The position numbers and the translations under genes are program-made. This document shows, piece by piece, positions 1-9,681 of a stretch of 9,903 bases of DNA. The stretch is taken from NCBI GenBank assembly GCA_023512255.1, contig JAILZY010000115.1, forward strand, positions 1 to 9,903. Direction: 5' to 3'. The notes under the pieces are model-generated. The model worked only from the letters and a program-made list of their open reading frames with translations, searched no databases and was not told the origin of the DNA. Origin of the DNA: a bacterium (lineage in GTDB: Bacteria > SZUA-182 > DTGQ01). Numbering within the stretch: the stretch's first letter is position 1; every line of letters starts with the position of its first letter.

Positions 1-89
1 CTGCCACTGACCTTGGAACAGTCGGCTGGGATCAGTACTACGGCTATGGCTTGGTTAATGCCTACTTGGCCGTGCTGCAAGCACCATAG
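1..89 (+). CDS. C-terminal end of a subtilisin-like serine protease (partial)
   Basis: Reading from base 3, the window opens in a frame that gives 28 residues before a TAG at 87-89. The peptide contains GWDQYYGYGLVNAYLAV. The pattern G-W/R-D-x-x-Y-G-Y-G-L-V-N-A is the conserved segment just after the catalytic-Ser helix at the end of S8 (subtilase) catalytic domains, so this is probably the end of a secreted or cell-surface peptidase. The catalytic Asp, His and Ser all lie outside the window. The protein stops right after the catalytic domain, with no visible C-terminal sorting domain. It is the only well-supported plus-strand gene here, and it points tail-to-tail at the minus-strand block. 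No clear intrinsic terminator follows it. The family call rests on one short motif. Confidence 0.68.
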   Translation, partial: ATDLGTVGWDQYYGYGLVNAYLAVLQAP

Positions 90-388: not shown

Positions 389-433
389 AGGCACCTCCCT
401 TCTTTTACTGAAAGGTAGAGAAGGGAGGTGCCT
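389..433 (-). terminator. Intrinsic terminator of the small secreted-protein gene at 480-1001
   Basis: A perfect 15-bp stem (389-403 with 419-433) encloses a 15-nt loop. On the minus strand the stem ends in GGTGCC followed by TTTTTCTCTTT, a good U-tract. It lies 47 nt downstream of the stop codon at 480-482. The plus strand has no T-run after the stem, so it acts in the minus direction. It closes the whole minus-strand block. Confidence 0.85.
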
Positions 434-479: not shown

Positions 480-1001
480 CTAAATAATCGGCAACAGGCT
501 AGTAAGCCCTGTGGATGAAGCCGGCGCAGTGGGAACAATGGTGGTAGTCGATATGGTTTGGGTTTGAGTCCAGGGGGGACCGGTTGGGATGGCTAAAAGA
601 GCGGGCAAAAGCGTAGCCAGAGCTGTAGGAGCTGGAGCAGTCGGAACAGTAGCCACGGCCGTTGGTGCTACGGGAAGTGAGGCAATAGGCACGGCACTCA
701 CATTTACCACCGACAGGGTGGGATCAAAGATAATGGTAATTGTTGCCGCAGCAAAACGCGTCGGCAAAATGGTGCCCATTGGGGCAAGGAGAGGCCGGGG
801 CGGAGCAATCCGCAAAGAGGGCATACCCAGAGGAGCAGGCAGAAAAGGTGCAGGTGCATAAAACGGATTGGCTGGTGGCATATAGAAAAAAGGAGCCCGA
901 ACTCCCCCGAAAGCTCCCGGCGCTACCATTTGAGCTGATCCAAAACCAAACGAGAACAATAAAGCCGCGGTGGTAAAGAGTAATGAGATCCACTTTCTCA
1001 T
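480..1001 (-). CDS. Secreted Pro/Ala/Thr-rich protein, paralogue family member A
   Basis: 173 residues; I recognise no named family. Residues 1-23 are a classic signal peptide (MRK, a hydrophobic core, G-S-A at the cleavage site), giving a mature protein that starts with Q24. Residues 35-75 are rich in Pro, Phe and Tyr (APFFYMPPANPFYAP). TRFAAATITI at 81-90 is the family box shared with the genes at 5255, 5741 and 6321. The rest is an Ala/Pro/Thr/Val low-complexity tail that includes WTQTQTISTTT. The mature part has no Cys and no Lys and very few charged residues. The start is fixed by AAGGAGGG six bases upstream of ATG (1001). The gene follows the sulfatase-TPR gene by about 200 bp with no terminator between them, so it may be the last gene of the block. 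Likely extracellular or envelope-associated and partly disordered; function unknown. Antisense frames over it are open only because of its GC-rich repetitive codons. Confidence 0.8.
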   Translation of the reverse strand: MRKWISLLFTTAALLFSFGFGSAQMVAPGAFGGVRAPFFYMPPANPFYAPAPFLPAPLGMPSLRIAPPRPLLAPMGTILPTRFAAATITIIFDPTLSVVNVSAVPIASLPVAPTAVATVPTAPAPTALATLLPALLAIPTGPPWTQTQTISTTTIVPTAPASSTGLTSLLPII

Positions 1002-1037
1002 CGTTTTCCCTCCTTTGATACAATCTTTGATTATTTT

Positions 1038-1090
1038 CCTAGAATAGATGAATCTGCTTTAAACTTGATGTGAAAAATACAAATTCTAGG
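1038..1090. repeat. Long-loop inverted repeat in the leader of member A
   Basis: CCTAGAAT (1038-1045) and ATTCTAGG (1083-1090) are perfect 8-bp arms with a 37-nt loop. They lie between the sulfatase-TPR gene and the Shine-Dalgarno of the gene at 480-1001. The AT-rich DNA at 1095-1145 could hold the promoter, but I see no clear -35/-10 pair. An unattached TCACCTCCT (1153-1161; AGGAGGTGA on the minus strand) and two GCCAAAAA copies (1163-1170, 1181-1188) are also here. Confidence 0.35.
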
Positions 1091-1202
1091 GATGCGCTCT
1101 TTATAATAATTAAATATAATTATGCTCTAAATATTATCTATAATCTCAGTGTTCACCTCCTGTAGCCAAAAATTAAAATGCCAAAAAACGGATAATACAC
1201 GC

Positions 1203-4200
1203 TTACCAACTCTCCTGCTGCTTCACGGTCTCCATAAGCATTCGAGCTTGGATATTGTCCGGCTCAAGCCGAAGAACCTCTTCTAGCTCTTGCAGCGATT
1301 GGCGATAATCCCTCCGGTATATGAGAGCCAGAGCCAGATTATAATGAACCTTTGGATCCTTCGGGGAAAGCTGTGCCGCCTTCTGCCATAGTTCTATGGC
1401 CTTTTCATAGTCTCCCTTTTTATAGAAAGCAGTACCAAGATTGATCATTGCTTCTGGATGGGCCGGAGTGCGGTTAAGGATCTTTTGCCATGATTGGATC
1501 GCCTCATCAAGATTATCCTGCTTGAGATAGGCAGTGCCGATATGTAGGTAAGCCTCATTTGAATTAGGATCAATCTCAATCACCTTTTTCCAAAGAGCGA
1601 TAGCCTCGGGATATTTCTCTGTCTGAAAGTTAACCGCGGCCAAATTCAGCAAGGGGACAGGATCACGAGGGGCAAGCCGGTGAGCTTTCTCCCATGCCAT
1701 GATCGCCTCTTGGGCCTTGCCAAGTTCATCATAGAGAACGTGTCCCATAAGCAGGTAAGCCTCAAGGTTATTTGGGTCAATCTCGGTCGTCTTCCTAAAC
1801 CAGGATAGAGCCTGGTCGAAGGAGCGAAGGTTAGTGTAAGTTTTGCCAAGGGAAAGAGAGATGTCCGATCGGAATGGTGCCAACCTGATGGCGGTTTCAA
1901 AAGGATCAACCGCACTTTTATACTCTCCTTGAGTGAAGTAGGTAAGTCCAAGGTAATTCCAGACCTCAGGATTGTTCGGAGCCAGCCTGGTGGCCTGAAG
2001 GTAGATCTTTTTAGCCTCTTCCAGCTCTCCCTCTTTGAAATAAGTCGTTCCGAGATTGACTAAAGCATCTGCATAGTTTGGCCGCAAACTGAGGGCTTTC
2101 CGAAAGGCATCTTTTGCTTTGGAGTAAGAGGATTGCGCTAAATAGAGGCTACCAAGGTTATTCTGGACTTCGGCACTGTTTGGGTCTATGGCTGCTGCCT
2201 GGGAAAATTCTCGCAGAGCCTCTTCAAACCGTGAGCGGCGAAAGTATACCACTCCAAGGTTATTGCGAGCCTCAAGGTGTTTTGGCTCAAGCTTCAGAGT
2301 ATCCATGAAATGTTGGTATGCCTCATCTAGCTCTCCCTTCTCAAGAGCTATTTCCCCAAGGAGATTTTTAGCATCACTATAGTCTGGATCAAGCTCAAGG
2401 GCTGATTTGGCTGCTGAAATAGCTTCATCCTTTTTCCCCATCTCCCTATAGACCATGCCGAGGTTATAATAAACATCAGCATATTTTGACTCTTGCAGGG
2501 CGAGCTGAAATTCTTTCATTGCCTGCTCAAGTTGACCTAACTGATGGTAGATAATCCCAAGGTGGTTTCGAGCCTCCAGATAGCCTGGCTGCATGGCCAG
2601 AAGATGTAAGAATCTATCCCTTGCCTGCTCAAATTTACCCATCTTTTCCTCTACACAGGCAAGGTAGAAGGTAGCTGAGAGATTTTCTGGATTTACATCG
2701 ATGATCTTTTTAAATTCATTATAGGCTAGCTCATAAGACTCAAGATAATAATAAGAAAGTCCTCGATCTATCCCATCGATCAAATGGATCATATCCTTGG
2801 GATCAGCCCGCTTTTGAGAAGCTTTGGCTGCCTTATCCTCCTCTTTGGCTTTGGCGGCTCGAAAATAGCCAAGGCTTTCAAGCCGCCGTAAAGCAGTCTC
2901 ATCCTGGATAAGTTTTGGATGCTGCTTTTCCTTTTGCAACTTTTCCTTTAAGAGCGAAAGTTTCTTTTCCCACTCATTGGCCAGATCGGGTTTAGTAGAT
3001 AGAAGATTGCGGTCTTCAGCAGAATCTTCAGCCAAATGGTACAGTTCAGATTTAGGTGCCTGGATATATTTCCAGTCCTCCGTTCTTATCCCCTCAATTC
3101 GGCTCCAGCCGAAATTAAGCTCTGGATACAATGTTTCACAGAAGATTTCCTGATGGAGAGTCTGACATTTCCCCGAAATTAGGGGCAGGAGGCTTTTGCC
3201 TGGCAGGTGGCTTAAGGAAACCCCCTCAGGCTGGATCGAAAAAAGGTCCATAATGGTTGGGAAAATATCCAGGGTAGTAACCATTGGAGATATTTTTTTA
3301 TGTTTTATTGTTTTTGAGACGGGCACAAGCCCTGAGGGCGCCTTGATGATCAGAGGAACCCGCAAGGTTGTCTCATAGATAAAAATCGTATGCGTGGCCT
3401 CCCCATGCTCACCCAGCCCCTCACCATGATCTGCTGTCAGAATGACCACTGTCTTATCCCATACCCCCATCCTCTTAAGCCCATTGAACAAATCCCCAAT
3501 GCACTTATCCGTATAGGCGATTTCCCCATCATAGAGGTGATGCTTATATTGCTCCCTGAAGGGAGAGGGAGGGAAATAAAGAGCGTGTGGGTCAAAATAA
3601 TGGACCCAGAGGAAAAAAGGCTGACTATGACTTTTTTCCAGCCACCTGAGGGCAGATTGGGTAACTTCCTCAGCTCGCCTTTCACTGTCAAGGGGGCTGG
3701 CACTCGATCGCTTCTTTCTCGGCAGAGAGTCATTATATTCATCAAACCCCTGACTCAAGCCGAACATGGAGTTTAAGACAAAGGCGCCGACACAGGCCCC
3801 GGTAAGATATCCCTGTGACTTCATGACTTCGGCCAGGGTGAGGGCACTGTCTGGCAGAAGAAAATTGCCGTTATTTTGTATCCCGTGCTGAATTGGATAA
3901 AGGCCAGTCATGATCGAAACATGCGAAGGCAGAGTGATCGGAACCGGAGTCAGGGCATGGGTAAAGAGAATACCTTCCGAGGCCAGAGCATCAATGGCTG
4001 GAGTCTTTACATTCTGGTAGCCATAGCAGCCAAGGTGATCGGCCCGCAGGGTATCAATTGTAATGAGAAGAAGATTATACTTTGATTTTTCCCCAGCCCC
4101 TTGAGCCGCAGCTTCACTCAAAGAAAGAGGACTTACTAGGATGAGCAAAAAGAGAAGCAACCAAAGATGAGAAAATGAAAATGATAATGATTTTTTGAAC

Positions 4201-4220
4201 AAAAGTTTTCGCCTTTCCAT
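1203..4220 (-). CDS. Exported sulfatase-superfamily hydrolase fused to about 15 TPRs
   Basis: About 1005 residues from the preferred ATG at 4220. A TTG two codons earlier (4226) gives 1007 residues, the numbering used here. ATG is preferred because AAGG lies about 10 nt before it but only 4 nt before the TTG. The N-terminus has a signal peptide or anchor (LWLLLFLLILV) with possible cleavage at AAA|QG. Residues 50-440 form an alkaline-phosphatase-superfamily sulfatase domain: TIDTLRADHLGCYGY with metal ligand D58, TLPSHVSIMTGLYP at 98-111, WVHYFDPH at 207-214, and TADHGEGLGEHG with D266-H267. The usual C/S-x-P-x-R formylglycine site is replaced by T98-L-P-S-H. A charged linker with LESLGYF follows, then about fifteen 34-residue TPRs (about 484-991) with N-L-G...Y...A...P consensus positions. 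Probable periplasmic or outer-face hydrolase or transferase of sulfate- or phosphate-type esters held in a protein complex. Substrate unknown. It is embedded among five secreted low-complexity genes. Confidence 0.9.
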   Translation of the reverse strand: MERRKLLFKKSLSFSFSHLWLLLFLLILVSPLSLSEAAAQGAGEKSKYNLLLITIDTLRADHLGCYGYQNVKTPAIDALASEGILFTHALTPVPITLPSHVSIMTGLYPIQHGIQNNGNFLLPDSALTLAEVMKSQGYLTGACVGAFVLNSMFGLSQGFDEYNDSLPRKKRSSASPLDSERRAEEVTQSALRWLEKSHSQPFFLWVHYFDPHALYFPPSPFREQYKHHLYDGEIAYTDKCIGDLFNGLKRMGVWDKTVVILTADHGEGLGEHGEATHTIFIYETTLRVPLIIKAPSGLVPVSKTIKHKKISPMVTTLDIFPTIMDLFSIQPEGVSLSHLPGKSLLPLISGKCQTLHQEIFCETLYPELNFGWSRIEGIRTEDWKYIQAPKSELYHLAEDSAEDRNLLSTKPDLANEWEKKLSLLKEKLQKEKQHPKLIQDETALRRLESLGYFRAAKAKEEDKAAKASQKRADPKDMIHLIDGIDRGLSYYYLESYELAYNEFKKIIDVNPENLSATFYLACVEEKMGKFEQARDRFLHLLAMQPGYLEARNHLGIIYHQLGQLEQAMKEFQLALQESKYADVYYNLGMVYREMGKKDEAISAAKSALELDPDYSDAKNLLGEIALEKGELDEAYQHFMDTLKLEPKHLEARNNLGVVYFRRSRFEEALREFSQAAAIDPNSAEVQNNLGSLYLAQSSYSKAKDAFRKALSLRPNYADALVNLGTTYFKEGELEEAKKIYLQATRLAPNNPEVWNYLGLTYFTQGEYKSAVDPFETAIRLAPFRSDISLSLGKTYTNLRSFDQALSWFRKTTEIDPNNLEAYLLMGHVLYDELGKAQEAIMAWEKAHRLAPRDPVPLLNLAAVNFQTEKYPEAIALWKKVIEIDPNSNEAYLHIGTAYLKQDNLDEAIQSWQKILNRTPAHPEAMINLGTAFYKKGDYEKAIELWQKAAQLSPKDPKVHYNLALALIYRRDYRQSLQELEEVLRLEPDNIQARMLMETVKQQESW

Positions 4221-4238
4221 GACCAAAATACCTTACCC

Positions 4239-4266
4239 TTAGCAATATCAATTTAGCAATATCAAT
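4239..4266. repeat. 14-bp perfect tandem duplication upstream of the sulfatase-TPR gene
   Basis: TTAGCAATATCAAT occurs twice with no gap (4239-4252 and 4253-4266), just upstream of the ribosome binding site of the sulfatase-TPR gene. It falls where promoter or leader sequence would be, so it could alter spacing or act as a paired binding site. It is equally consistent with replication slippage. Confidence 0.85.
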
Positions 4267-4289
4267 ATAGTGGGCCACAAGGAACAAGG

Positions 4290-4318
4290 GGCAGGGCTTC
4301 CATCTTGGTCACCCTGCC
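4290..4318 (-). terminator. Possible weak terminator after the beta-domain secreted protein
   Basis: GGCAGGG (4290-4296) pairs with CCCTGCC (4312-4318) across a 15-nt loop, about 70 nt after the stop at 4387. On the minus strand it is followed only by CCTTGTTCCTTG, a poor U-tract. Attenuation or mRNA processing is as likely as full termination. Confidence 0.3.
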
Positions 4319-4328
4319 AGAATCCCTT

Positions 4329-4354
4329 ATTCAGACCATGATAATTCAGACCAT
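4329..4354. repeat. 11-bp tandem-type duplication
   Basis: ATTCAGACCAT occurs at 4329-4339 and 4344-4354 with a 15-bp period, between the beta-domain gene and the sulfatase gene. It is one of several short tandem duplications in the non-coding DNA of this window. Confidence 0.7.
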
Positions 4355-4386
4355 AATGTGAATGTGCTTGCCGCAGTGCACGGAAC

Positions 4387-5103
4387 CTAAAATATAACCG
4401 GAGCTTGCAAAGTCAAATCAAATACTCCTTCATCCAGGATCGGGATATGAGTGCCTTCTACCGTGTAAAAACCTGTCATTGTTGTTGGTGAGGTAAGAAT
4501 ACAGGTCATAACCATACTATATCCAGTAGATAGGAGCCCACTGAGCGAGATAACGTTGTTTACCTTTACCCCATCAACACTAAATGGGATGCTGGCGTAC
4601 TTGCTGCCAGCAAAAACAGCAGTCCCAAGTACCGTTCCCAAGAGGGGATCAACAACGATATTCAGCGTCATCGGCCCGGTATGCCAGAGAACAATATAGG
4701 CGATATAGGTACTGGTCCAGGTACCCACCCAGGTCCCTGACTGGGCAGCCGTACGGGTTGGGGTGGTAAGGGCTGTAGTCGTAGGTAATGTTACCGGAGT
4801 AGGAAGAGGAGCAAAGGGGAATGTGGGAATAATCGGGTAGTAACTTGGTGTGAGCAGTGGATTAAAAGTGGTTGAAAGCAGTGAGGCAAAAGGATCAAAA
4901 AGAGGGTAGCTGCCCGCAGCTACTCTATAAAGGCCAGGAGAGAAAACATAGGGATTGAAGAATCCTCCATAGCCTACAGCTGTATTGAGAGGAGGCAAGG
5001 TGCCAGCAGTATACTGCGCATAACTTGATAATACCCAGATTATGGATAGCGAAATGACAGCAGTGAAGAATAGCAAAACAATACTTCTTTTCCCTTTGGT
5101 CAT
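4387..5103 (-). CDS. Secreted Pro/Thr-rich protein with C-terminal beta-rich domain, family member B
   Basis: 238 residues from ATG 5103. The frame is open 20 codons further upstream, but the perfect AGGAGG at 5109-5114, five bases from this ATG, and the signal peptide starting MTKGKR decide the start. Signal peptide 1-29 (SYA|Q30). Residues 31-115 are the Pro/aromatic/Thr-rich part, with FNPYVFSPGLY and YPLFDPFASLLSTT; the latter matches PLFDPYLSLPTT in the gene at 6321. TRTAA at 116-120 is a remnant of the family box. From about 122 there is a globular domain of roughly 115 residues starting SGTWVGTWTS and continuing with alternating hydrophobic strands and glycines to the end. It resembles lipocalin-like or other small beta-barrel domains that start with a G-x-W motif, but I cannot name the family. 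It is the only member with lysines and a Cys in the mature chain. Confidence 0.82.
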   Translation of the reverse strand: MTKGKRSIVLLFFTAVISLSIIWVLSSYAQYTAGTLPPLNTAVGYGGFFNPYVFSPGLYRVAAGSYPLFDPFASLLSTTFNPLLTPSYYPIIPTFPFAPLPTPVTLPTTTALTTPTRTAAQSGTWVGTWTSTYIAYIVLWHTGPMTLNIVVDPLLGTVLGTAVFAGSKYASIPFSVDGVKVNNVISLSGLLSTGYSMVMTCILTSPTTMTGFYTVEGTHIPILDEGVFDLTLQAPVIF

Positions 5104-5108
5104 AATAA

Positions 5109-5116
5109 CCTCCTTT
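5109..5116 (-). promoter_or_regulatory. Shine-Dalgarno site that decides the start of member B
   Basis: AAAGGAGG on the minus strand, with five bases (TTATT) before ATG 5103. The upstream in-frame start at 5163 has no comparable site. Its extra residues, MRDIRDIR, are encoded by the repeat AGAGATATTAGAGATATA, which looks like leader DNA rather than coding sequence. Confidence 0.85.
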
Positions 5117-5122
5117 CTTATT

Positions 5123-5140
5123 ACCTTATTATAATAAGGT
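5123..5140 (-). promoter_or_regulatory. Perfect 18-bp palindrome in the leader of member B
   Basis: ACCTTATTATAATAAGGT is fully self-complementary and has no spacer. It sits 6 bp upstream of the Shine-Dalgarno of the gene ending at 5103 and contains TATAAT at its centre. It could be an operator overlapping a -10 box or a leader hairpin. I see no good -35 for the TATAAT. Confidence 0.5.
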
Positions 5141-5193
5141 CTTATATCTCTAATATCTCTCACAAAAACCCGGTTCGCAGGCTTTGTCAGGCT

Positions 5194-5237
5194 GTAAATT
5201 CCTCAAGATTCATTTTGGTGAATCTTGAGGAATTTAC
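5194..5237. repeat. Perfect 19-bp hairpin without a U-tract, after member C
   Basis: The arms 5194-5212 and 5219-5237 are perfectly complementary (GTAAATTCCTCAAGATTCA and its reverse complement) with a 6-nt loop. It lies 17 bp after the stop of the gene at 5255-5716. Neither strand has a run of T after the stem, so it is not a textbook intrinsic terminator. It could be a 3'-end stabiliser, an RNase III site or a small palindromic insertion between members C and B. Confidence 0.75.
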
Positions 5238-5254
5238 GTTTACACGCCTCCTTA

Positions 5255-5716
5255 TCAGATAAATAAATTCGATAATACAGCAAAAAGGAGCGGATTAGCT
5301 GTACTTATGGCTGCTGGCGAATAAAGTGCCTGAGCATAGAGTGAAGCCAGAGTCGAAACGATTGGACTTACTGTCGCTGTAGTAGTAGCCGCCGCCGTAG
5401 TAGCAGGAGCTACTGTGGTTACTGACACCGTACCAGTGGTTGGGTTAGTAATAATAATCGTTGTCGCCGCAGGTGCCCTGGTTACAGGAGCCGCTATAGG
5501 ATCAATAAAATAGGGATAAGGCTGTATAAAAAATGGCGGAGGAACAGGTGGTGCGTAAATTGGCACGATCGGATAAAAATATGGATTTGCGGACCAGGGG
5601 AAGAAATAGGGTACTTGGGCCGCACCTGTTGATGACAAAGAAAAAATGACCATCATGCAGAAAATAACTATCTGAGAAGTTAATGCCAAACCTCTCGCCC
5701 CTTGCTGTTTTGACAT
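5255..5716 (-). CDS. Secreted Pro/aromatic- and Thr-rich protein, family member C
   Basis: 153 residues, no named family. Signal peptide 1-33 (GAA|Q34). Residues 35-73 are a Pro/Tyr/Phe stretch (YFFPWSANPYFYPIVPIYAP). Family box TRAPAATTIIIT at 79-90. Thr/Ala/Val region 91-120. The C-terminal module at 124-153 has LYAQALY and, at 140-145, ANPLLF. Member D, also 153 residues, has the same module with NPLLF at exactly the same positions (141-145). In the mature chain I find only one Asp and one Arg as charged residues, no Lys and no Cys. The ribosome site is moderate (AAGGGGA about nine bases before ATG 5716). The start lies 24 bp after the stop of member D, so the two are very probably co-transcribed. 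Likely an insoluble or surface-associated extracellular protein; function unknown. Confidence 0.82.
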   Translation of the reverse strand: MSKQQGARGLALTSQIVIFCMMVIFSLSSTGAAQVPYFFPWSANPYFYPIVPIYAPPVPPPFFIQPYPYFIDPIAAPVTRAPAATTIIITNPTTGTVSVTTVAPATTAAATTTATVSPIVSTLASLYAQALYSPAAISTANPLLFAVLSNLFI

Positions 5717-5740
5717 TGCTTTAGTCCCCTTACTTAGCTT

Positions 5741-6202
5741 CTAAAGAAGCAATGTTGATAAATAACCAAATAATAATGGATTAGCTACAGAAAGAGGGCT
5801 CTCATAGAGGGCACTTGCGTAGAGTACACCTAAAATCCCTAACAGAGGTGCGGGAGCCGCGGTTGTGGTCGGCACTGTTGTGCTGACCACTGTGGTGGTC
5901 GTAGTGGGCGTAACCACAGTCGGAGCGCCAATGACCAGGGAGCCGGCTGTTGGGCTTACCGCGGTAATCCCTGGGGAAAGAATAATGGTCGCCTGAGGTG
6001 CTCTGATGTAGGGTATTGGCGCAATCGGATAAAATATGGGCGCTGGATAGATAGGAACAGGAGCATAGAAAGGTACAAGAGGGGGATAGAGAAATTGACA
6101 TGCCCCTTTCTGGAGAGCTACTCCGAAAGTAAATACACAACATAGAGCAGAAATGAGGAGTAATTTTTTAGTAAAACTCATAAAATAGCTCTTACTGCGC
6201 AT
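5741..6202 (-). CDS. Secreted Pro/aromatic- and Thr-rich protein, family member D
   Basis: 153 residues, clear paralogue of the gene at 5255-5716. Signal peptide 1-35 ends GAC|Q36. A Cys at the cleavage edge suggests a lipoprotein, but K-G-A-C is not a proper lipobox. Residues 37-66 are Pro, Tyr and Phe rich (FLYPPLVPFYAPVPIYPAP). Family box IRAPQATIIL at 66-75. A Thr/Val/Pro tract with TPTTTTTVVSTTVPTTT follows, then the C-terminal module LGVLYASALY and ANPLLF (140-145). The mature chain has only one Arg and one Glu as charged residues. ATG 6202 has AGGAG seven bases upstream, which supports this start over the internal Met at residue 8. It is first of a two-gene unit with member C, and a promoter is proposed at 6223-6252. 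Confidence 0.82.
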   Translation of the reverse strand: MRSKSYFMSFTKKLLLISALCCVFTFGVALQKGACQFLYPPLVPFYAPVPIYPAPIFYPIAPIPYIRAPQATIILSPGITAVSPTAGSLVIGAPTVVTPTTTTTVVSTTVPTTTAAPAPLLGILGVLYASALYESPLSVANPLLFGYLSTLLL

Positions 6203-6222
6203 ATTGTAACTCCTAACACTTC

Positions 6223-6252
6223 AATATAAAGTTGTGTGAAATAATTATTCAA
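6223..6252 (-). promoter_or_regulatory. Putative sigma-70-type promoter of members D and C
   Basis: On the minus strand, TTGAAT (6252-6247), an 18-bp spacer, then TATATT (6228-6223). The expected start gives a leader of roughly 15 nt before ATG 6202. The -35 overlaps an 11-bp palindrome TTCAAGTTGAA (6248-6258), a possible operator. The motifs match the consensus only in part. Confidence 0.4.
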
Positions 6253-6320
6253 GTTGAAGTTTTATAGAAAAATTATAACCTGTTAAAATAACCCTCCTTC
6301 TTCCTATACCAATAGCCTAC

Positions 6321-6689
6321 TCATTCCTCCAAAGATAAGAATAGGGTTAGCAGAACAAGGGTAGTTGGGGTCAGAGATAGGGTACCCAAAGGTGCGGCTG
6401 CGGTAACTGTAGGGGTTGTGGGTAACAAAACGATGGTTGCCGCGGCAGCTCTTGTGGCCGTAGTCGGAAGAGACAGATAAGGATCAAACAGCGGGATTGT
6501 GGGATATATCGGAGCAAACACAGGATATGGCGGAACATAAGGATAGAAAGGTACGGCTGCAAAAGGTACGGCTGCGTATGGTGGAACATAGGGAAGAAAT
6601 TGAGCACTAGCCTGAGTTGAAGCCAATAAATTAACCGCTATAGTAAAGATAATAGCGCAACTTACGTATTTCAAAGAAAATTCTTTCAT
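6321..6689 (-). CDS. Secreted Pro/aromatic-rich protein, short family member E
   Basis: 122 residues. Signal peptide 1-29 (ASA|Q30). Residues 31-70 are almost entirely Pro, Tyr, Phe, Val and Ala, ending PLFDPYLSLPTT. A five-residue internal repeat, AAVPF AAVPF, comes from a 15-bp DNA duplication at 6547-6575. Family box TRAAAATIVLL at 79-89. The chain then has a short Thr/Leu tail ending in LEE, and it lacks the LYAxALY/ANPLLF module of members C and D. AAGGAGA lies nine bases before ATG 6689. It appears to be the first gene of the minus-strand block, with a proposed promoter at 6727-6756. The 118-bp gap to member D has no evident terminator but carries that gene's own promoter candidate. Function unknown; probably an extracellular or envelope structural protein. 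Confidence 0.8.
   Translation of the reverse strand: MKEFSLKYVSCAIIFTIAVNLLASTQASAQFLPYVPPYAAVPFAAVPFYPYVPPYPVFAPIYPTIPLFDPYLSLPTTATRAAAATIVLLPTTPTVTAAAPLGTLSLTPTTLVLLTLFLSLEE
6547..6575. repeat. In-frame 15-bp duplication inside member E
   Basis: AAAGGTACGGCTGC occurs at 6547-6560 and 6562-6575, period 15 bp. It is in frame and duplicates the peptide AAVPF, which shows that the Pro-rich segment can grow by slippage without breaking the gene. Confidence 0.8.
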
Positions 6690-6726
6690 AGTGAATAATC
6701 TCCTTTTAGCTTAGTTTTTAAGAGAG

Positions 6727-6756
6727 AATATACACATGAAATTAAAAAACTGAGAA
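6727..6756 (-). promoter_or_regulatory. Putative sigma-70-type promoter of member E
   Basis: On the minus strand, TTCTCA (6756-6751), an 18-bp spacer, then TATATT (6732-6727) preceded by TGTG, an extended -10. The expected leader is about 30 nt to ATG 6689. The -10 and spacing are the same as in the promoter proposed for member D, suggesting shared control. The -35 is weak. Confidence 0.42.
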
Positions 6757-7012
6757 TTAAGGATGGTTGGCATCAATCGATATGGCTACAGGCATAAGTA
6801 CCAAAATCTAACACCCGGATAACTATACGTACCTTTATTGATCATAAAAAGTATCTGAAATAGCTACCTACCAAATTGGGGGTACCTACTTTGAGCTCTT
6901 ACTCACCCTCAATGCATCTTGAAAAATGGACAGCAAATTCACCCATAATTCAAAAGATTGTCAGTAAGGTAAGGATCATGTAAATCTGCCTATAAACTCA
7001 CCAAACCATACC

Positions 7013-7029
7013 TTGGCACTTACTTTGCA
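7013..7029 (+). promoter_or_regulatory. Sigma-54 (RpoN) promoter
   Basis: TTGGCAC at 7013-7019 and TTTGCA at 7024-7029 match the sigma-54 consensus TTGGCACR-N4-TTGCW, differing only at the R position (T). The GG (7015-7016) and GC (7027-7028) are exactly 12 bp apart, as the family requires. The predicted start is at about 7040. No plus-strand gene follows; two hairpins and a terminator do. A sigma-54 promoter would need an enhancer-binding activator upstream; I cannot identify its site. Confidence 0.65.
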
Positions 7030-7039
7030 TATTAATAGA

Positions 7040-7132
7040 TTGCATACAAAAGGTCCCAAACTTTCTGTATGTATCACGAAGGTCATCGGTATTAATATGA
7101 TCCGTCCATTGAAAATACCGGTGACCTTTTTT
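7040..7132 (+). ncRNA. Predicted sigma-54-dependent small RNA, about 93 nt
   Basis: The transcript expected from the sigma-54 promoter is about 93 nt. It begins with hairpin 1: CATACA (7043-7048) plus AAAG (7049-7052), paired with CTTT (7061-7064) and TGTATG (7066-7071). This hairpin has one bulged C and an 8-nt loop, GTCCCAAA. A single-stranded segment, TATCACG, follows, and the RNA ends in the terminator at 7079-7132. Promoter, structured 5' end and intrinsic terminator in the correct order are typical of a trans-acting sRNA. No conserved family is recognised. Targets are unknown; one natural guess is the secreted-protein genes next door, but I found no decisive complementarity. Confidence 0.5.
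7079..7132 (+). terminator. Intrinsic terminator, plus strand
   Basis: Arms 7079-7093 (AAGGTCATCGGTATT) and 7114-7128 pair over 15 bp with a single G-U wobble and a 20-nt loop, followed by T6 at 7127-7132. The minus strand has only AA at the matching place, so the direction is plus. It ends no coding gene and so implies a non-coding transcript. Confidence 0.75.
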
Positions 7133-7149
7133 ATCAACCCTTCTTGCAA

Positions 7150-7403
7150 AAATCACCTCCTTATCTACTATAAGCCCATATAATTACATACTTATAAGCA
7201 CAGATAAAGCATATAAAAAGGTTCTTCTTAGTATAAATTATTCTCTCCTCATAACCAGGAGAGCGGTCTCTATCACCTCCCTTTCTCTAAAAGTTCTCTA
7301 AAAGCATTTTGTTAAAAACTTCTCCTTCGAGCACTTTCCTTATTATTTGGAGAAGGCTCCTAGCCTCTCACCTCCTTTCTTTGCCTATTTATCCATATCC
7401 CCG
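7150..7403. other. Pyrimidine-rich segment with three 16S-tail (anti-SD) mimics and hairpins
   Basis: ATCACCTCCTTA (7152-7163), ATCACCTCC (7272-7280) and TCACCTCCTTTCT (7368-7380) match the 3' end of 16S rRNA on the plus strand. Equivalently, they are strong GGAGGTGA Shine-Dalgarno sites on the minus strand, but the last two lack a usable start codon. Hairpins lie at 7243-7263 (CTCTCCT/AGGAGAG, 7-nt loop), 7319-7355 (CTTCTCC/GGAGAAG) and 7354-7366 (AGGCT-CCT-AGCCT). The plus-strand terminator at 7404-7432 follows. A second plus-strand RNA is possible, but no good promoter is seen. Confidence 0.4.
7283..7304. repeat. 11-bp tandem duplication
   Basis: TTCTCTAAAAG occurs twice back to back (7283-7293 and 7294-7304) within the pyrimidine-rich non-coding segment, directly after the second 16S-tail-like motif. 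Confidence 0.8.
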
Positions 7404-7432
7404 CTCTCTTTTTACAGATAAAGAGAGTTTTT
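7404..7432 (+). terminator. Intrinsic terminator, plus strand
   Basis: CTCTCTTT (7404-7411) pairs perfectly with AAAGAGAG (7420-7427) around an 8-nt loop, and T5 (7428-7432) follows. The stem is AU-rich at the loop end, so strength is moderate. No plus-strand gene precedes it. Confidence 0.6.
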
Positions 7433-7460
7433 CTTGAGGCTACAGATGTTCCCCAGCTCT

Positions 7461-7489
7461 TCCTCCCTCTTGGGAGAGGCGAGGGGAGT
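7461..7489. repeat. Remnant of a GGGAGAGG-type palindromic repeat
   Basis: CTCCC-TCTT-GGGAG (7463-7476), followed by AGGCGAGGGGAGTGAG, resembles the dispersed CCCTCTCCC...GGGAGAGGG(T)TGGGGTGAGG type of intergenic repeat. The family assignment is from memory; the hairpin itself is visible. Confidence 0.3.
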
Positions 7490-7527
7490 GAGATTTGGCT
7501 TTCACACCTAGCAAGAGGCATACATAA

Positions 7528-7625
7528 TAGCCTACTATGCTTGTTGGCACCCTAAACAAATAGCCTACGCTAGCACCCTAAAGCAAGCCGTGGCAGCGCG
7601 CACCCTAAGTAAGAGGAGCTTAGGG
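7528..7625. repeat. Decayed repeat cluster with a terminal hairpin
   Basis: TAGCCTAC occurs at 7528-7535 and 7561-7568. GCACCCTAA occurs at 7547-7555, 7573-7581 and 7600-7608. The third GCACCCTAA runs into a hairpin, CCCTAAG (7603-7609) with CTTAGGG (7619-7625) and a 9-nt loop. The unequal spacing (33, 26 and 27 bp) argues against a CRISPR array and for degenerate copies of a small repeat unit of about 26-33 bp. Confidence 0.55.
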
Positions 7626-7706
7626 CGAGCTCTGGAAACAAGAAGGTCTCACTTTGATCAACAGGAAGAGCGGGCTGTCTGCCTGAGCTTTCTTTGGCTA
7701 AGGTAA

Positions 7707-7829
7707 ATGATGGAGGAGAAGTGGAGCCCCTGGATCAACATCACATTGGTTAAGTTATTCATAAAAAAGGAAAAAGATGAAATCATGGCTCGCTGTCGCT
7801 TTAAAGATTGCTCGGATATAGTATGTTAG
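7707..7829 (+). CDS. Possible small ORF, 40 codons, unknown
   Basis: Opens with ATG ATG (AAGG six bases before the second ATG) and runs to TAG at 7827-7829. The peptide starts MMEEKWSPWINITLVKLFIK and is Lys/Glu rich with three Cys in its last third; I recognise no family. An in-frame stop directly precedes the first ATG. Composition is protein-like, but nothing else supports it: no promoter, no terminator, no neighbouring gene. It could be a remnant of a larger gene or chance. Confidence 0.2.
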   Translation: MMEEKWSPWINITLVKLFIKKEKDEIMARCRFKDCSDIVC

Positions 7830-7877
7830 CTAAACAGAGAAAACCACAAAAACATCCCAAATATCAATGAATAAGAA

Positions 7878-7903
7878 ATCAATGCATGAATTTATCAATG
7901 CAT
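7878..7903. repeat. 10-bp direct repeat, 16-bp period
   Basis: ATCAATGCAT occurs at 7878-7887 and 7894-7903. A third partial copy, ATCAATG, begins at 7863. It lies in AT-rich DNA with no gene. Confidence 0.6.
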
Positions 7904-8011
7904 TATTTCCCATTCCCTGATCCTGATTGGGCTTTCTCTGATTGATAAAACAAAAATTAACTTAATTTTTTGAATTGCTGGGGTGTAAAACTGGGGTATC
8001 TAATTCGGATA

Positions 8012-8087
8012 ATTCTATTCTTAGATAGAATAGAAGCTACAGAGCCGTCACCCGGCAACCTTGCCAAAACCCGGGCAAGTCTTCTAT
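8012..8087 (+). ncRNA. Candidate structured RNA: hairpin plus three-way junction
   Basis: A 7-bp hairpin (ATTCTAT 8012-8018, ATAGAAT 8025-8031, 6-nt loop) is followed by a closed junction. P1 is ATAGAAG (8030-8036) with CTTCTAT (8081-8087). P2 is GCCG (8044-8047) with CGGC (8053-8056). P3 is CTTGCC (8060-8065) with GGCAAG (8074-8079). The joining strands are CTACAGA, AAC and T. P1 and the upstream hairpin share two bases, so they compete, as in a switch. The segment is locally GC-rich inside AT-rich DNA and holds no ORF. It matches no riboswitch consensus I can recall. The strand is uncertain. Confidence 0.3.
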
Positions 8088-8091
8088 AACT

Positions 8092-8119
8092 TTTCTTTAC
8101 TAAAATCTTTCTTTACTAA
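8092..8119. repeat. 12-bp direct repeat, 16-bp period
   Basis: TTTCTTTACTAA occurs at 8092-8103 and 8108-8119, immediately after the structured segment at 8012-8087. Confidence 0.75.
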
Positions 8120-8431
8120 TTCCTTATGCTTATGGAGATGCAAATTTCATGCTCATATGGAAAAGTTAAGGAAATTCTTGCATTTCTTCCCTGAAATGCT
8201 CAATCGGATAATAGGCTTAACTTATTGATTTATCATTATGATATTTATCACTTAAAGTTGGTCTTACCCTTAGGGTGGGGTGAATTATGACTTGAAGTCA
8301 AGACCTGAGCTGGTTTTCTCATTGAAGAGATTAAAATTTTATGTATTCCCTTACACAGAGTAATTAGCAATTATGAAGGAATGCATCATCTAACCATCTG
8401 TTAATAAACTGAAAACTCTTGTCTGCTAGAT

Positions 8432-8472
8432 TATGCATTTTTTTGCATATCTCATTCATACTATGAATGAGA
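8432..8472. repeat. Two adjacent palindromes
   Basis: TATGCA (8432-8437) and TGCATA (8444-8449) flank T6. Next to them TCTCATTCATA (8450-8460) and TATGAATGAGA (8462-8472) form a perfect 11-bp dyad around one C. The second has the form of a dimeric-regulator operator. No gene start lies close by on either strand. Confidence 0.6.
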
Positions 8473-8520
8473 CAGAACAGCTTGAATGTGGATGAAGAGA
8501 GTACCTTTAAAACTATTTGT

Positions 8521-8586
8521 TATTTCAAAATGAAATATATCAAGAGGAGAATATTCAGGGTTCATAGAAACTATGAACCCTGAATA
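8521..8586. repeat. Perfect hairpins, 7 bp and 15 bp
   Basis: TATTTCA (8521-8527) pairs with TGAAATA (8531-8537). Next, TATTCAGGGTTCATA (8552-8566) pairs perfectly with 8572-8586 around the loop GAAAC. No T-run follows the 15-bp hairpin on either strand. Its architecture matches the hairpin at 5194-5237, but the sequences differ. Confidence 0.7.
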
Positions 8587-8707
8587 ACAGATGAAATTAT
8601 GCCCTCCTGCCCCTGTGCCTTTTTGTTTCAGGATGAACAAGGCAAGCAAAGCTCAAAAAGATACTCATGGTCGCCGCAAGGAATTTTAAAAAAGAGAATC
8701 CTTGTCG

Positions 8708-8749
8708 CTACAAGACGATTTGAAGAACCTACAAGACGATTTGAAGAAC
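8708..8749. repeat. 21-bp perfect tandem duplication
   Basis: A 21-bp unit beginning CTACAAGACGATTTG is present at 8708-8728 and again, identically, at 8729-8749. It lies just beyond the terminator of the gene at 8899-9681. The 21-bp length keeps all reading frames open, which produces spurious repeated peptides such as LQDDLKN. Confidence 0.9.
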
Positions 8750-8765
8750 AGTAGAGATAAAAAAA

Positions 8766-8803
8766 GGCGCTATAGGCAAGAGAAAAGACTTGCCCGTAGC
8801 GCC
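8766..8803 (-). terminator. Intrinsic terminator of the DUF4412-like gene
   Basis: Arms 8766-8780 and 8789-8803 form a 15-bp stem with one wobble and one mismatch around an 8-nt loop (GGCGCTA...GGCAAG / CTTGCC...TAGCGCC). On the minus strand it is followed by T7 (8765-8759), a strong terminator. On the plus strand CTTTT follows, so it may also work in reverse. Confidence 0.88.
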
Positions 8804-8821
8804 CTTTTCAGTAAAACTTTC

Positions 8822-8884
8822 TGCCCGCAAATAGGCCCGCCATGCCCACAAATAGGCCCGCCATGCCCACAAATAGGCACGCCG
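8822..8884. repeat. Three tandem copies of a 21-bp GC-rich unit in the 3' UTR
   Basis: Units at 8822-8842, 8843-8863 and 8864-8884 share the core CAAATAGGCCCGCC, with single-base differences (CGCAAA versus CACAAA; GGCCCG versus GGCACG). They lie between the stop of the DUF4412-like gene and its terminator. They are contiguous with no spacers, so this is not a CRISPR array. Confidence 0.85.
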
Positions 8885-8898
8885 CGGGTGTATCTGCG

Positions 8899-9681
8899 TC
8901 AAGGGGCTGCTGCCGCTGCCGCGGGAGCAGCAGCCGAGGCAGGCTGCTGGCCAGAGGTGCTGCTTTTTTTATCCTCAGACTGAGGAGAGGCTTTAGGCTC
9001 CTCCTTTGCCAGCAGGCCTTCTATCTTGTACCCTGGCGGTATATCAAACAATTTCCCATCGATTTCCTTTTCCTCCACCTTAACTAGCCTAGTAACCATA
9101 TCAAGTTTCTTGTTCTGGGCATCCATATGGACGGTGATCTCTACCGGATAGCCAGAGTATTTATTCAATTCGCTGACAATTTTCTTTTGGCCAAAATAAA
9201 CAGCCATTTTTGACCTTATTTCCTTGGGTACCTTGACCGCATCGCTGAGCCAGTACTCTACATCTGTAGGAATCCCCTTAGCCGTGCTGGTCATAATTAC
9301 CTGGTAGGCGTCCCATTGGCCAATCTTTTTGGTTTTACCGGTCTTTTTTGAATGGACCTCAATCTCTTTTTCAAGAGCCGCAAACTGAGCTTTTAAATCG
9401 ATTTCCCTGGCGGTCTTCTCCTGCTCATTAAGCTGATAGGCCTTGTCCTGATCCATGTGAATAATTAAGACCGTATTTTTATCGCTCTCATTTAAATATC
9501 TTATCTTATCCTGTTTTACCCACATCTTCAACACCGAACTATTACCCGATGGTTTTCCATCAAGCAAGGTCTCGGTCTGTTTTTCAATATAATAATCACC
9601 CGCCCAAACAAAGCTACCTCCCAAAAAAGATATAAGGCATCCTATAATCAGCCCCAGGACTACTATTCTGTTTGATTTCAT
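8899..9681 (-). CDS. Exported DUF4412-like (LolA-fold-like) protein
   Basis: 260 residues. Signal peptide 1-27 (VWA|GDYYIEKQ). The mature part starts with short alternating strands (SSVLKMWVKQDKIRYL, NTVLIIHMDQDKAYQL), then EWQ-type segments such as IGQWDAYQVIMTS and PTDVEYWLSDAVKVPKE. It ends with NKYSGYPVEITVHMD and LFDIPPGYKIE. That order (a WVKxDK-like strand, then a GYPV strand, then a closing PPGYK) is typical of DUF4412 proteins, thought to have a LolA/LolB-like half-barrel in the periplasm. The biochemical role is unknown. Residues from about 222 form a charged, then Ala/Pro-rich low-complexity tail (SAAAPAAAAAAP), encoded by GC-rich DNA that continues into a 21-bp repeat after the stop. 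GAGGA lies seven bases before ATG 9681. It has its own terminator and appears monocistronic. Confidence 0.72.
   Translation of the reverse strand: MKSNRIVVLGLIIGCLISFLGGSFVWAGDYYIEKQTETLLDGKPSGNSSVLKMWVKQDKIRYLNESDKNTVLIIHMDQDKAYQLNEQEKTAREIDLKAQFAALEKEIEVHSKKTGKTKKIGQWDAYQVIMTSTAKGIPTDVEYWLSDAVKVPKEIRSKMAVYFGQKKIVSELNKYSGYPVEITVHMDAQNKKLDMVTRLVKVEEKEIDGKLFDIPPGYKIEGLLAKEEPKASPQSEDKKSSTSGQQPASAAAPAAAAAAP

Follow-up and report, generated by a model that had tools for sequence, protein, structure and literature searches.

The window analysed here is one entire contig of 9.9 kb (9,903 nt; JAILZY010000115.1, our G000:C131) from a 3.8-Mb metagenome-assembled genome of 97% completeness. The genome belongs to an uncultured, poorly known order that is represented in this work by five genomes, namely the window genome itself (G000), one of the same genus (G001, the congener), one of another family (G004) and two further members of the order (G002 and G003). 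Within the window a cluster is transcribed from the minus strand in the order A, B, C, D, a sulfatase-fold–TPR gene and E, and closes with a terminator-like hairpin. Genes A–E encode secreted, low-complexity, low-charge chains, as judged from signal peptides and composition, and are paired with an exported enzyme both here and in related clusters of the order; we consider below what such a pairing may build.

Gene A (6321..6689, minus strand, as for all genes of the cluster) encodes 122 amino acids, with a signal peptide (...SAQ/F), a Pro/aromatic part, the box TRAAAATIV (Arg80) and, in an alignment of 5 orthologues, the conserved C-terminus APLGTL.LTP.TLVFLILFLSL.E. Gene B (5741..6202; 153 amino acids) carries the box IRAPQATII (Arg67), a Thr/Val/Ala tract and, from its alignment, the C-terminus LYASALY..PLSVANPLLF.YLS.L; gene C (5255..5716; 153 amino acids), which aligns as a paralogue of B, has the box TRAPAATTI and the same C-terminal motif. 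Gene D (4387..5103; 238 amino acids) combines a Pro/aromatic part, an R-T-A-A-Q junction and a conserved C-terminal domain of ~115 amino acids, with the alignment consensus GTW.GTW...GPMTLN..DPL.G...LTSPTTM.G.Y...DEG.F.L.L..PV. The enzyme gene (1203..4226) encodes an exported alkaline-phosphatase-superfamily (‘sulfatase’) domain (PF00884, 1e-49) followed by a C-terminal TPR solenoid (TPR_1, 1e-92), with a Thr nucleophile in the motif ITLPSH. Gene E (480..1001; 173 amino acids; alignment of 7) has the box TRFAAATITIIFDP..SVVNVSAVPI (Arg82), a Thr/Ala tract and the terminus LTSLLPII, and the cluster ends in the terminator-like hairpin at 389..433 (minus strand; folding −35 kcal/mol over a 100-nt stretch), followed by TTTTTCTCTC.

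The original prediction, made from the DNA alone, had named these five small open reading frames and assigned to each a signal peptide and a Pro/aromatic segment after it, all of which was borne out: the frames are present at the positions given, all on the minus strand, alignments of orthologues and paralogues drawn from the five genomes reveal a conserved (A/C/G)-Gln junction, and the Pro/aromatic segment follows in all five. A clear Shine–Dalgarno sequence stands at four of the five starts (C has GGGG only), and comparison with the congener orthologues gave dN/dS values of 0.12–0.23 across the five genes (0.12–0.14 for A), indicating purifying selection; together these features argue that A–E are selected genes and not chance open frames. 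In the alignments of A, B/C, D and E, Gln occupies position +1, immediately following the signal peptide, a feature that the original prediction does not mention. Mature A, B and C of the window have no basic residue other than the box Arg, and some relatives have more. Mature C and D had been said to hold two charged residues each and no Lys; this is correct for C, and also for B, whereas D has 11 charged residues, two of them Lys.

The five genes had been taken for one divergent array, a view that did not survive the alignments and profile tests, which separate four families (A, B/C, D and E). B and C are true paralogues (tblastn match E 1e-9) with the common C-terminus LYA.ALY...ANPLLF..L..L, a feature absent from the original prediction. 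The Arg box thought to unite all members was subjected to the proposed composition-controlled profile comparison, with 40 shuffles keeping local composition. A matched B/C strongly (E 5e-8, 0/40 local shuffles as good), box Arg aligning on box Arg; A matched E weakly but above the shuffles (E 0.005, 0/40); the match of B/C to E was ambiguous (E 0.0015, 10/40 local shuffles as good); and no match of D to A, B/C or E was supported. The box R-x-x-x-A-T-(I/V) accordingly stands for A and B/C, weakly for E, in which it is also present, but not for D. We reject a single five-member family: the profile comparison ties A to the paralogous pair B and C, leaves the place of E in doubt and sets D apart. 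The array is thus four families joined by composition, by signal-peptide type and, in three of them, by a related core. An Arg is invariant across all aligned orthologues of A, B/C, D and E; it lies where the Pro/aromatic half gives way to the Thr/Val half or, in D, just before the conserved domain.

A lack of homologues beyond this contig was to have refuted the original prediction, but two other genomes of the order do carry them. Absence outside the order was measured among 116–386 genomes depending on the family, and A, B/C and E were found in G000, G001 and G004 only among 116; one extra B/C match in a distant genome was marginal (E 0.009, over the first 65 positions only). B homologues are 59–70% identical in the congener and 41–52% identical in the other family of the order. 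The proposed check, whether homologues are arrayed beside sulfatase–TPR genes, came out positive in G001 and G004, with gene order kept: the G001 cluster (L092) reads A1, A2, B1, B2, C, D1–D3, enzyme, E, in the same order as the window, and the G004 cluster (L094) reads A, B/C, D, enzyme, one extra gene, E. A second G004 site (L095) has A, B and E without the enzyme. In addition, G000 and G001 each carry a paralogous cluster (L004 and L093) with B-like and E-like genes, five tandem genes of a Trp-rich family (W, described below), a Tyr-rich gene and another enzyme copy; the Tyr-rich gene encodes a secreted protein (22–23% aromatic) between the W array and the enzyme (L004:3881-4441 and L093:2778-3302). 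Searches of Pfam, NCBIfam, PHROGs and PADLOC with A–E returned no match above cut-off, and the PADLOC and PHROGs searches identified none of them as known defence or phage proteins. A viral or plasmid origin was rejected, given that viral contigs held no relatives of D, W or B/C and plasmids none of D.

The enzyme shared by these clusters is annotated by its fold as a sulfatase, but it does not carry the sulfatase nucleophile. Nearly all of the 53 copies in the order have T-(L/M/F)-P-(S/A)-H at the nucleophile site, with conserved DHG(E/Q) motifs, and none of the 53 has the formylglycine motif C-x-(P/A)-S-R. A formylglycine-dependent S1 sulfatase, which would show C/S-x-(P/A)-S-R, was rejected: Thr stands at that place, with His for the following Arg, also in the alignment with 6hr5, although the solved structures closest to the enzyme in sequence are S1 sulfatases. 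The PF00884 match (E 1e-49), the metal-ligand motifs and Thr at the nucleophile position are those of a Thr-nucleophile member of the alkaline phosphatase superfamily; Thr in place of the formylglycine Cys, and His in place of Arg, thus make the enzyme resemble the Thr-nucleophile phosphatases and phosphotransferases in one feature, the nucleophile, and its activity is a prediction from that feature. Such a catalytic Thr is found in LtaS, EptA, MCR-1 and YejM (PMC7576196). The window enzyme shares with these proteins, and with EptC and PptA, the superfamily, export and Thr at the nucleophile position, and differs from them in having no multi-TM (transmembrane) anchor, a long TPR solenoid and 8–13 paralogues per genome. 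Matches of the enzyme in PHROGs and PADLOC were of TPR type only, and named homologues elsewhere mostly have T-x-P-(S/A)-H as well. EptC and PptA modify flagellar and pilin proteins.

With 8–13 copies per genome of the order, the pairing of enzyme and low-charge gene could be counted. A low-charge secreted gene lies within 1 kb of 18 of 49 enzyme copies, whereas for large genes >2.5 kb away the figure is 10 of 83 (odds ratio 4.2, p 0.0016), and a stricter, earlier definition gave a weaker result in the same direction (14/51 versus 26/198, p 0.018), these p-values being indicative because independence holds neither for the sampling of the locus genes relative to the enzyme nor for related copies. 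The count itself is conservative, since many copies sit at the end of a contig, and inspection by eye picked up some neighbours (L231 and L245) that the filter had missed. In a maximum-likelihood tree of 48 copies, partner type follows clade, the enzymes beside the A–E array, beside Pro/Tyr/Thr proteins and with W upstream each falling into supported clades.

Related cassettes with these other low-charge partners occur throughout the five genomes of the order. Each of the five has the D domain at 2–10 places, none of 285 others has it (5/290), and most proteins that carry the domain consist of a signal peptide, a long silk-like GGLYGG repeat and then the domain. Such GGLYGG-D secreted proteins are encoded on G000:C118, C46, C36, C132, C160, C26 and C20 (L129–L135) and on G001:C1, C61 and C87, by genes that are single or paired among housekeeping genes. 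In their long repeats on one conserved domain and their many paralogues per genome they recall silk, chorion, Gly/Tyr-rich structural proteins and PE_PGRS proteins, from which they differ in that the conserved domain is C-terminal and has no Pfam or NCBIfam match, and in that the window members are Pro/aromatic instead of Gly/Tyr. The most expanded family is W, a new Trp-rich family (PPYNVLWPLWSP...(R/K)NTILPVQP...WGLPPI) of which each of the five genomes has 14–29 or more copies and 381 others have none. W genes form tandem arrays of 3–5 (L004:4633-7899, L093:3519-6669, L013:609-2634 and L280:1374-4936), and a few copies read through one stop (G000:C18, G001:C22 and G002:C97). Neither the D domain nor W has a match above cut-off in Pfam, NCBIfam, PHROGs or PADLOC, or a meaningful relative among solved structures. 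The third type comprises Pro/Tyr secreted proteins ending TTTSTIGTTTALLLGG(V/T)STTTLLALGI, encoded directly upstream of one enzyme clade (L223:988-1644, L233 and L245:4274-4987). A literature search on sulfatase–TPR pairs and silk-like bacterial proteins found nothing relevant. PEP-CTERM/exosortase proteins are likewise short and secreted with many paralogues, and two PEP-CTERM-like proteins adjoin a GGLYGG-D gene at L135:6038-7384, which suggests an exosortase system in G000. The C-termini of A–E themselves, however, show no PEP motif, TM segment or basic tail; most B/C, D, E and W chains finish on uncharged hydrophobic residues, and A on an acidic one.

Two further features, both absent from the original prediction, emerged from these comparisons. 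The first is a C-terminal Ile, whose frequency is 56% for B/C, 60% for D-domain proteins, 89% for E, 64% for W and 100% for the Pro/Tyr/Thr type, the last of these a set chosen with a terminal I/L filter; the background is 4–9% Ile over the preceding 60 residues, and 0% of the enzymes end in Ile. The second is a perfect inverted repeat between C and D (5194..5237, no strand assigned), which folds with 19-nt arms and a 6-nt loop. Its stem is kept in the congener and its loop differs, while the flanking genes have dS >1, that is, saturated synonymous sites. The pattern TTCCTCAAGATTCA-N-TGAATCTTGAGGAA has a single occurrence in each of G000 and G001, in either case between C and D, and none in three other genomes. 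No T-run follows the stem, and the hairpin may lower the expression of D and the enzyme relative to A–C.

Upstream of A lie ~2.2 kb without an evident gene (6690..8898, no strand assigned), another feature on which the original prediction is silent, with two BLASTN islands, at 7003-7162 (78%) and 7630-8590 (63%), that are conserved upstream of A in the congener only; Rfam gave no family at gathering score in this region, and weak permissive matches were judged to be chance. Beyond it, a secreted DUF4412 protein with a C-terminal poly-Ala/Pro tail is encoded at 8899-9681 (minus strand), a gene also found upstream of the G001 cluster and not of that in G004. Near the end of this gene are tandem 21-nt repeats (2 and 3 copies) and a perfect 16-nt palindrome (8708-8749, 8822-8884 and 8552-8586). 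At the other edge, positions 3-89 (plus strand) encode the end of a subtilase-like protein (ATDLGTVGWDQYYGYGLVNAYLAVLQAP), convergent with E. We rejected it as the protease of the cluster, there being no subtilase gene beside E in L092 or L094.

We tentatively suggest that the window holds one cassette within a set of order-restricted secretion/assembly loci, in which low-charge chains and a paired enzyme would form extracellular or envelope material, a reading that we regard as quite plausible while placing it slightly short of probable. It is based on the synteny A–B/C–D–enzyme–E in G000, G001 and G004 and the second B/E/W cassette in G000 and G001, on the expansion of the enzyme, the enrichment of low-charge neighbours and the agreement of partner type with enzyme clade, and on the C-terminal Ile in five families, the position of the D domain behind silk-like repeats and the purifying selection. 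The original prediction had spoken of a self-assembling material, which would be compatible with the composition, with the many genes in the arrays and with D's silk-like relatives bearing GGLYGG repeats; assembly itself stays a prediction. In such a scheme, signal peptidase would cleave the precursors to leave uncharged chains with an N-terminal Gln and a hydrophobic C-terminal Ile, and these chains, released or held at the cell surface, would pack into a coat, sheath or matrix of protein, the conserved boundary Arg serving either for processing or as a specific contact. With its TPR part the enzyme may grip its partner chains, perhaps by the terminal hydrophobic tag, a mode of binding that is possible because TPRs read C-terminal peptides in HOP and PEX5; the phosphatase-fold domain might attach a phosphate-linked group to the Thr tract, or to a glycan on that tract, or take one off.

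Several observations weigh against this proposal. A, B/C and E are missing from G002 and G003, which do carry the enzyme, W and D domains; family A has no terminal Ile and ends in LSL.E; for about half of the copies of the enzyme no low-charge neighbour is obvious, and Thr-nucleophile sulfatase–TPR genes occur in many phyla without such partners, so that the enzyme may have a general envelope role. Structure prediction with AF2 gave models too poor to interpret, both for the D domain alone from a single sequence (pLDDT 42) and for W from a three-sequence alignment (pLDDT 39).

An alternative that we think unlikely, though it deserves serious consideration, is that the products are mucin-like glycoproteins whose Thr/Ala/Pro tracts are O-glycosylated and whose glycans the enzyme trims or decorates, the outcome being a hydrated glycan coat and not a self-assembling protein. 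The Thr-rich Pro/Ala tracts of A, B/C and E would suit this role, as would the superfamily of the paired enzyme, which acts on sulfate and phosphate esters of glycans, lipids and proteins; however, the GGLYGG and W partners of the same enzyme family have no long Thr tracts, and no glycosyltransferase is conserved in the cassettes.

It appears less likely still that the box marks a processing site, at which a Pro/aromatic propeptide would be removed after Arg by a trypsin-like or other protease, freeing the A-A-T-I-I beta-strand for strand exchange as in type V pili and leaving the C-terminal half of A, B/C and E as the mature unit. The invariance of the box Arg, its being the sole basic residue in mature A, B and C of the window, its place at a domain boundary (in D, just before the conserved domain) and the occurrence of (R/K)NTILPVQP at a comparable place in W all fit cleavage. 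Type V pilins (FimA/Mfa of Bacteroidales) have a conserved Arg before a beta-prone segment, and the N-terminal part of their precursors might be removed. A–E share such an Arg and a possibly removable N-terminal part, but they are much smaller and of low complexity, and Arg cleavage in them is hypothetical. Moreover, A–E show no match above cut-off to Pfam FimA/Mfa and no lipobox consensus before the +1 Gln, homology of the D box is unsupported, and the cassette lacks a conserved protease: in L092 and L094, E has no subtilase end like that at 3-89 beside it.

Finally, that unrelated low-complexity envelope proteins have been grouped by chance composition beside an unconnected enzyme with a general envelope role is, in our judgement, decidedly improbable, for although D has no profile match to the others and the enzyme is partnerless in about half of its copies and widespread without partners, gene order is conserved across two families, pairing follows enzyme clade with an enrichment of such neighbours, and the C-terminal Ile is common to otherwise unrelated families.

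Returning to secretion/assembly cassettes, we put forward a more speculative extension, which in its full form is rather doubtful: the unrelated low-charge families may share a code (Gln at +1 and a C-terminal Ile), the TPR part of dedicated enzyme paralogues may read the Ile while the catalytic domain modifies the chain, and parallel cassettes may build different layers or materials of one cell. Because those TPR-fused ‘sulfatases’ that were examined have no sulfatase nucleophile, such proteins in many phyla are easily mis-named. If the cassettes do act as proposed, the order would devote a large and so far unnamed share of its secretome (tens of W, GGLYGG-D, Pro/Tyr/Thr and A–E genes per genome) to uncharged silk- or chorion-like proteins and their partner enzymes, and would offer both new protein-material sequences and a testable class of substrates for TPR-fused ‘sulfatases’.

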